Assembly: GCF_034377285.1 (NCBI RefSeq)
Contig: NZ_CP139715.1
Location: 620,001-684,000 of the forward strand
Direction of reading: 5' to 3'
Source of the DNA: Thalassobaculum sp. OXR-137
GTDB lineage: Bacteria > Pseudomonadota > Alphaproteobacteria > Thalassobaculales > Thalassobaculaceae
Length of the DNA: 64,000 nt
Translations under genes and position numbers: made by a program
Part shown: positions 25,145 to 25,485 of the stretch, in pieces
Layout of the letters: each line of letters begins with the position of its first letter
Numbering within the stretch: position 1 is the stretch's first letter
Notes under the pieces: model-generated
Databases searched by the model: none
Told to the model about the DNA's origin: nothing
What the model saw: the letters and a program-made list of their open reading frames with translations, nothing else

Positions 25145-25327
25145 CGCTACCCTGCCTTGCCTAAACGGGCTCGCCATATGGCGGCCCCGGCGACTGTTCG
25201 GGTTCGAGGGATGAACGGTGGATGGGCAACCTTGCTGACGTTCGGGCTCGCACGCTCCAGGACGACTCGGCGTCCCATCCACCACCGCTTCCGAAACTCT
25301 ACCAGAAGCGGAAGACGATAAGTTACA
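25145..25327 (-). ncRNA. Candidate IS110 bridge RNA region
   Basis: Read on the minus strand, the 5' noncoding end has three structured parts. A stem-loop (25311-25305 with 25291-25285) comes first. Next is a 10-bp stem (25283-25274 with 25226-25217) enclosing a large loop. Last is a donor-like segment with a CGCCATATGGCG hairpin. In the large loop GTCGTCCT (25266-25259) equals the left flank of the insertion, and CGTCAG (25240-25235) is complementary to the right flank. In the last part ACAGTCGC (25197-25190) equals the right end of the element. A weak right-donor candidate GCAAG is at 25160-25156. The order matches IS621-type bridge RNA; expression is inferred. Confidence 0.7.
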
Positions 25328-25485
25328 AGGACGACGAGGTTGCGTTCCCTTCTCCCCGGCACCGGCATGCAAACCGTCATCACCCTCGGCTACGATCGGT
25401 TGCCAAGGCTTGTTGGTGCCCGCCGCGTGTTACAGTAATGTGGCATCCAGGATTTCCCGCCTTTCGCTGATCGATGGAGCCGACG

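Follow-up and report, generated by a model that had tools for sequence, protein, structure and literature searches.

An IS110-group insertion sequence of Thalassobaculum in a host palindromic repeat, with a left end that very probably encodes a bridge RNA

The insertion sequence and its transposase

The window analysed here is a stretch of 64,000 nucleotides from Thalassobaculum sp. OXR-137 (contig NZ_CP139715.1, positions 620,001 to 684,000), and unprefixed coordinates refer to its own numbering. Its minus strand carries, from 25329 to 24183, a 1.1-kb insertion sequence of the IS110 group, with the following borders and flanks:

24183-25329, minus strand: whole IS110-group insertion sequence, from core CT to core CT (1145 bp with one core counted)
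24200-25144, minus strand: coding sequence of the transposase/recombinase, 314 amino acids (PF01548 and PF02371)
25329-25328, minus strand: left core CT, read from the sequence
25330-25336, minus strand: left target half CGTCGTC, part of the host repeat (copy alignment and site counts)
24112-24184, minus strand: right target half with the remainder of the palindromic host repeat (comparable repeats at other genomic positions; site counts)

Ten near-identical copies of the element are present in the genome of this strain; their borders are common to all ten despite differing flanks, and the core dinucleotide CT stands at both ends of every copy. The encoded protein combines the domains DEDD_Tnp_IS110 (PF01548) and Transposase_20 (PF02371), and it matches the NCBIfam model transpos_IS110 (NF033542) with an E value of 4.1e-68. 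Two solved chains match it as well, namely ISCro4 (PDB 9t56; E 1.2e-35) and IS621 (8wt6_A; E 8.4e-35). Its residues D9, E57, D99, D102 and S238 align with the catalytic residues D11, E60, D102, D105 and S241 of the IS621 chain, the numbering of which runs two ahead of that in PMC11208158, where these residues are named. Judged by its sequence, the transposase possesses the DEDD RuvC-like domain and the C-terminal domain with a catalytic serine that characterize the IS110 group, and the noncoding sequence is distributed as in that group: 185 nt lie upstream of the coding sequence, against 15 nt between the stop codon and the right core. A scan of viral contigs yielded a single fragment of 38 residues.

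Insertion within a host palindromic repeat

All ten copies are inserted at CGTC(A/G)TC-CT-GA(C/T)G within a palindromic repeat; six of the occupied sites carry G and C at the two variable positions, three carry A and C, and one carries A and T. In its unsplit form (CGTCRTCCTGAYG) the site occurs a further 69 times in this genome, against one occurrence of the reversed control pattern, and these 69 sites are not independent of each other since several of them lie next to inserted copies as partner arms. Allowing any base at both variable positions raises the count to 85 sites, against 4 for the control. The sites belong to a palindromic repeat, CGTCATCCTGA...TCAGGATGACG, that is often arranged as inverted pairs. 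A cluster of this palindromic repeat at L046 (G000:C1:5137825-5138191) has a spacing of about 100 bp and holds six unsplit target sites.

Opposite each of the two variable positions of the host site the guide has a G, which can pair with either alternative. The proportion of occupied sites declines as wobble pairs are added, from 6/22 with none through 3/30 with one to 1/27 with two (one-sided permutation p 0.013, post hoc). Two-sided Fisher tests of occupied versus unsplit sites, also post hoc and based on 69 site types that were coded by hand and rechecked by eye, gave p values of 0.037 for C versus T on the right and 0.024 for both positions together, while G versus A on the left was not significant (p 0.17). 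Such wobble pairing is not new in kind, since the target guide of IS621 naturally contains a G opposite T (PMC11208158).

Predicted structure of the left end

From its sequence, the 185-nt left end looks like an IS621 bridge RNA in its anatomy, and its putative parts can be placed as follows:

25285-25311, minus strand: predicted 5' stem-loop of the bridge RNA (83.7% of cells paired; three pairs changed on both sides)
25216-25284, minus strand: predicted target-binding loop and its stem (96.4% of cells paired; ten pairs changed on both sides)
25259-25267, minus strand: candidate left target guide AGTCGTCCT (8 of 9 positions identical to left target and core in the window copy)
25235-25241, minus strand: candidate right target guide ACGTCAG (complement of CTGACG(T))
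25234, minus strand: candidate handshake base C of the target loop (complementary to donor position 7, G; precedent in IS621, PMC11208158)
25190-25197, minus strand: candidate left donor guide ACAGTCGC (same sequence as the element's right end)
25156-25164, minus strand: candidate right donor guide, split as UU-(AG)-G-CAAG (complement of left-end CTTGTAA; IS621-like split)
25155, minus strand: candidate handshake base G of the donor loop (complementary to target position 7, C)

The original prediction described a stem-loop on the minus strand followed by a 10-bp stem around a loop, and both elements are present, the former at 25311-25285 and the latter as GGTGGATGGG/CCCATCCACC, which encloses the target loop in the single-sequence fold. 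This fold is only mildly better than those of shuffled sequences (z -1.85; 9 of 200 shuffles as stable or more), and a scan of the window with Rfam returned no family at gathering score. Taken by itself, the single-sequence fold is unimpressive; the case rests on comparative evidence.

A consensus structure derived from a MAFFT alignment of 13 left ends has three parts: the 5' stem-loop, the target loop, enclosed by a long stem and with a hairpin inside, and the donor loop. In its first three helices 92.3% of the cells are paired, the covariation score amounts to 0.294 (0.162 after shuffling), and 14 pairs are changed on both sides, against 2.9 in shuffles and 2-6 when the partners are slid, statistics that are favoured by the derivation of the structure from the very alignment on which it was tested. 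The stems of the target loop carry compensatory changes. The predicted fold of the donor loop is less well tested, because its pairs are nearly invariant in the 13 sequences and show little covariation.

A covariance model built from the left-end alignment was then run on 29 loci, 18 from plasmids and 11 others. The plasmid loci were fetched among 60 matches listed (of 3227 records) and derive from alphaproteobacteria, Deinococcus and two betaproteobacteria; the remaining listed matches include many near-identical Klebsiella records. The model matched just upstream of the transposase at all 18 plasmid loci (E 1.2e-57 to 0.0026) and at 8 of the 11 others (weakest E 0.029), L058, L059 and L110 being the three without a match; five additional opposite-strand matches (L157, L158, L159, L161, L166) were ignored. 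These matches reach transposases down to about 45% identity, and together with the 14 two-sided changes they bear out the expectation that relatives share a conserved fold of 5' stem-loop and target loop.

Target guides and their covariation with the flanks

The target loop was predicted to hold GTCGTCCT, identical to the left flank, and CGTCAG, complementary to CTGACG of the right flank. Both are there, at 25266-25259 and at 25240-25235, respectively, the latter facing 24184-24179. In the alignment, the right guide comprises seven bases with an invariant AG at the end. It fits its own right flank at all seven positions in 11 of 12 elements and at six in the window copy, which has a miss at position 7; two of the ten copies in the same genome, L044 and L045, carry the base that restores a 7/7 fit. 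Over the seven distinct guides of this first set, guide and flank agree at 34 of 35 non-core positions, a fit that the true pairing alone reaches among 5040 arrangements.

A second set of 19 of the 29 covariance-model loci gave agreement at 89 of 95 positions, with one wobble scored as a pair. Its 13 distinct guides, three of which recur in the first set, agree at 59 of 65 positions, against a mean of 2.5 of 5 for swapped pairs, and none of 200,000 shuffles scored as high. The misses fall on L162 (two positions; this element fits poorly on the left and right sides) and on L155, L160, L165 and L024 (one each). This set was kept out of model building but was not blind, as the flanks of L019, L024 and the plasmid loci had been read beforehand, and its guide strings were taken by hand. 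L170 was excluded because its right end was not found, and for L022, L026, L057, L058, L059, L060, L061, L110 and L114 the right end was not worked out; among these nine, the RNA model did match L022, L026, L057, L060, L061 and L114. L017 has a scaffolding gap and two left ends, the first of which supplied the left flank and the second the RNA; L021, L029 and L162, the matches of which come in pieces, seem to have been interrupted.

The left guide behaves more loosely. In 12 elements scored at six positions with wobble allowed, the own targets reach a total of 54 against a mean of 41.8, a value attained by 10 of 200,000 shuffles; the total peaks in the expected register (32-38 when shifted). 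Without L018, the left guide of which repeats that of L010, the total is 49 against 38.3 and is reached by 67 of 200,000 shuffles. A foreign left target outscores the own one in 5 of 13 elements (L010, L015, L016, L029, L104), and the left flank of L010 fits at only 2/7 positions, whereas L018, with an identical left guide, fits well. Loop and target thus covary strongly in the right half but weakly in the left. In the same way, identical guides at unrelated targets, which would speak against the prediction, were not seen for the right half, although the pair L010 and L018 illustrates the laxity of the left.

Some relatives read TT instead of CT at the left core. At L012, L018, L157, L158 and L161 a left TT is combined with a right CT, and the left guides are of the ..TT type; in the genome G101, 41 intact host sites read TT at the left core. 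The left junctions of these five elements are candidate natural TT-core targets.

Donor guides and candidate handshake bases

The prediction that a third part of the RNA carries a copy of the right end of the element held, as ACAGTCGC at 25197-25190 corresponds to the right end ACAGTCGCT at 24191-24183. The right donor guide had seemed weak, consisting merely of GCAAG, because it is split: GCAAG is present at 25160-25156, but the guide is larger and divided as in IS621, where two paired bases are followed by two flipped-out bases, a G opposite T, and then CAAG (PMC11208158). Pairing of this guide with the element end was found at position 11 in 31/31, at position 13 in 28/31 and at position 14 in 28/31 elements. 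Re-coded guides read AU with TGTAT ends in L164, L165, L166 and L169, AC with TGTGT in L171, and UAAG with CTTA in L019, which fits in part, with a miss at position 14; the guides of L162 and L168 do not fit. Positions 13 and 14 together give a score of 1.81 of 2 for own pairs and 1.44 for swapped ones, a covariation that rests on few elements because the donors vary little. The donor guides therefore match the element ends, with few re-coded cases. In these counts, a wrong guide candidate was scored for L159, which produced its misses at position 13 and at the handshake (GCAAG and then G stand at the usual place), and L024 is absent, as the script found no guide.

The candidate handshake bases are complementary in 27 of 31 elements, form a wobble in two and neither in two. 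With own pairs at 0.87 and swapped pairs at 0.82 the bases are nearly uniform, and since swapped pairs score nearly as high, the handshake is a weak test; L169 is the single re-coded case counted.

Three side observations concern the donor guides. Some left donor guides (L116, L011, L154, L155 and L160 were compared with the window) contain the complete CT core (ACAGTCGCT), and others, that of the window at 25197-25189 included, read ACAGTCGCC; with its core broken in this way, the guide DNA might be shielded from use as a donor end. At window 25160-25142, a few nucleotides separate the right donor guide GCAAG(G) from the start codon downstream; the guide could overlap the ribosome-binding site, so that folding of the RNA and translation of the transposase may compete. 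L128 (G331:C1:177235-177378) is a solo mini-element of about 136 bp that consists of the left end, the 5' stem-loop, the whole target loop and the left donor guide, after which the right target follows immediately. Its make-up suggests that the sequence between the donor-guide copy of ACAGTCGCT and the identical right end was deleted, either by slippage across the 9-bp repeat or by recombinase activity directed at its own guide DNA.

A possible promoter across the inferred circle junction

Two further candidate features lie at opposite ends of the element:

24198-24203, minus strand: candidate -35-like box TTGACC at the right end (spacing of TTGA in relatives)
25320-25325, minus strand: candidate -10-like box TAACTT at the left end (weak consensus match; conserved in the alignment)

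If the ends were joined in a circle, the two boxes would be 17 bp apart. Of 31 elements tried, 26 have TTGA at 21 nt from the right core's end and L168 has it at 14 nt; in L019, L167, L170 and L171 TTGA was not found. The stop codon does not account for this spacing, because in L154 TTGA is located about 75 nt past the annotated stop. By analogy with IS621, we infer that the circle junction would complete a promoter-like pair, of which the -35-like box and the spacing are conserved while the -10 is weak.

Interpretation and alternative explanations

Taken together, these data make it nearly certain, in our view, that the element is an IS621-like member of the IS110 group and that its left end encodes a bridge RNA. 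The original prediction of such an RNA is sustained by right guides that are re-coded along with the right targets and by the conserved structure, and its central claim, a loop programmed for the insertion site of the element itself, goes beyond chance, as 10/10 copies sit on CGTCRTC-CT-GAYG and the pairing is rebuilt in relatives. By analogy with IS621, the element would excise as a circle, in which the joined right and left ends would complete the promoter TTGACC-17-TAACTT. A bridge RNA transcribed from this junction would then bind the transposase, its donor loop would pair with the circle junction ACAGTCG-CT-TGTAA, and strand exchange would occur at the core, the programmed target being one arm of the host palindromic repeat.

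The left end could instead be a structured 5' leader that regulates the transposase, the protein selecting its target by recognition of the palindrome. Regulation by mRNA-leader structure is named in the title of a paper on ISPpu9 (PMC8450116), and in the alignment the predicted closing stem of the donor loop extends into the start codon, so that a role in translation is possible. Yet a leader alone does not predict that right guides are re-coded together with right flanks, as they are even between L012 and L016, the transposases of which are 87% identical; we therefore judge this explanation very unlikely. Still less probable is it that the similarity of loop and flanks arose by chance, or through capture of flanks at insertion. 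The sequence is GC-rich and the matches are short, so a single element by itself would not rule out chance, and the left guide copies the top strand of the flank rather than its complement and matches loosely in several relatives. However, rather than copying the flank, the right guide reads as its reverse complement, at a fixed place in the fold, and both the permutation results for this guide and the ten copies with one loop and one target stand against chance. An IS1111-group element, which shares the transposase superfamily but has its noncoding region and seekRNA downstream of the transposase, has a negligible probability here, since the long noncoding region lies upstream and only 15 nt separate stop codon and core at the right end.

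Under the bridge RNA interpretation, the guides are readable directly from raw sequence, and the relatives form a natural reprogramming series in which transposases up to 87% identical carry different right guides and matched right targets. Such guide/target pairs could supply nature-tested rules, including TT cores and wobble pairs, for work on bridge recombinases.

Guides and host repeats in different genomes

The site of the window type has 69 occurrences in the genome of origin. Three tested congeneric genomes contain 62, 39 and 14 such sites, and five other genomes contain between 4 and 12. Since the tested congeners have no close relative of the element, the repeat does not depend on it. 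The site of the G331 type (CCTCATCCTGAGGT) occurs 113 times in G331, six times in G101, and neither in the window genome nor in G105; the rhizobial site (GCCACCTTCTCCCC) occurs 41 times in G101 and nine times in G105, both of which possess that type of guide, and is missing from the other two genomes. Among the genomes tested, each of the three targets, the patterns of which were chosen after the insertion sites had been seen, is thus commonest where its guide occurs. The G331 transposase is 71% identical to that of the window, and its five copies have the same donor and a different target. Among 385 drawn genomes of the class, 2, that of the window included, carry a relative at E 1e-70 or better.

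Tentatively, and with more doubt than confidence, we suggest that one IS110 lineage may follow the palindromic repeats of its hosts through re-coded target loops, its donor and donor loop changing hardly at all, and may hedge against polymorphism of the repeat with a G, a base that pairs with C or forms a wobble with T, at each guide position that faces a variable one. Selection would then be the driver of the match between guides and host repeats. Guides tracking host repeats were not found in the titles and abstract openings of the literature covered, a search that lay outside preprints and most subscription papers.

Comparison with known systems

ISCro4 (PDB 9t56) is the closest solved sequence (E 1.2e-35), compared here by its transposase sequence alone. 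ISMex17, ISMno7 and ISAli16, names taken from plasmid annotation (L160, L165 and L171), are IS110 elements that the RNA model also recognizes, and their right guides fit at 4, 4 and 5 of 5 positions; they differ in transposase identity (58.6, 51.7 and 45.7%, respectively) and in their targets. ISPpu9, ISPpu10, ISPa11 and ISRm19 are IS110-family elements that insert in REP sequences (PMC1525189) of other hosts, and ISPa11 is of the IS1111 type (PMC11187229); the likeness of these four is one of description.

IS621 of E. coli, also of the IS110 group, resembles the window element in many features. As described in PMC11208160 and PMC11208158, IS621 has the following traits, which are seen or predicted in the window element as well: at the left end, a bridge RNA made up of 5' stem-loop, target loop and donor loop (the last a prediction here); a CT core; four guides in a like arrangement; a right donor guide that is likewise split, its G facing T at the corresponding position; a REP palindrome as target; and a promoter across the circle junction, for which the window element has candidate boxes. 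PMC11208160 also names short subterminal inverted repeats in the IS110-group donor. The two elements differ in target and loop sequence and in host, and their transposases are distant (E 8.4e-35). Reportedly, going by the title of the work of Choi from 2003, REP sequences are targeted by IS621.

The bridge RNA mechanism, covariation over thousands of elements, recombination-competent TT cores and REP targeting by IS110 are all represented in the published record (PMC11208160, PMC11208158, PMC11187229, PMC1525189). With the mechanism known from IS621 and REP targeting already published, the element of Thalassobaculum adds a clear further case to a known kind of system and does not represent a new one.
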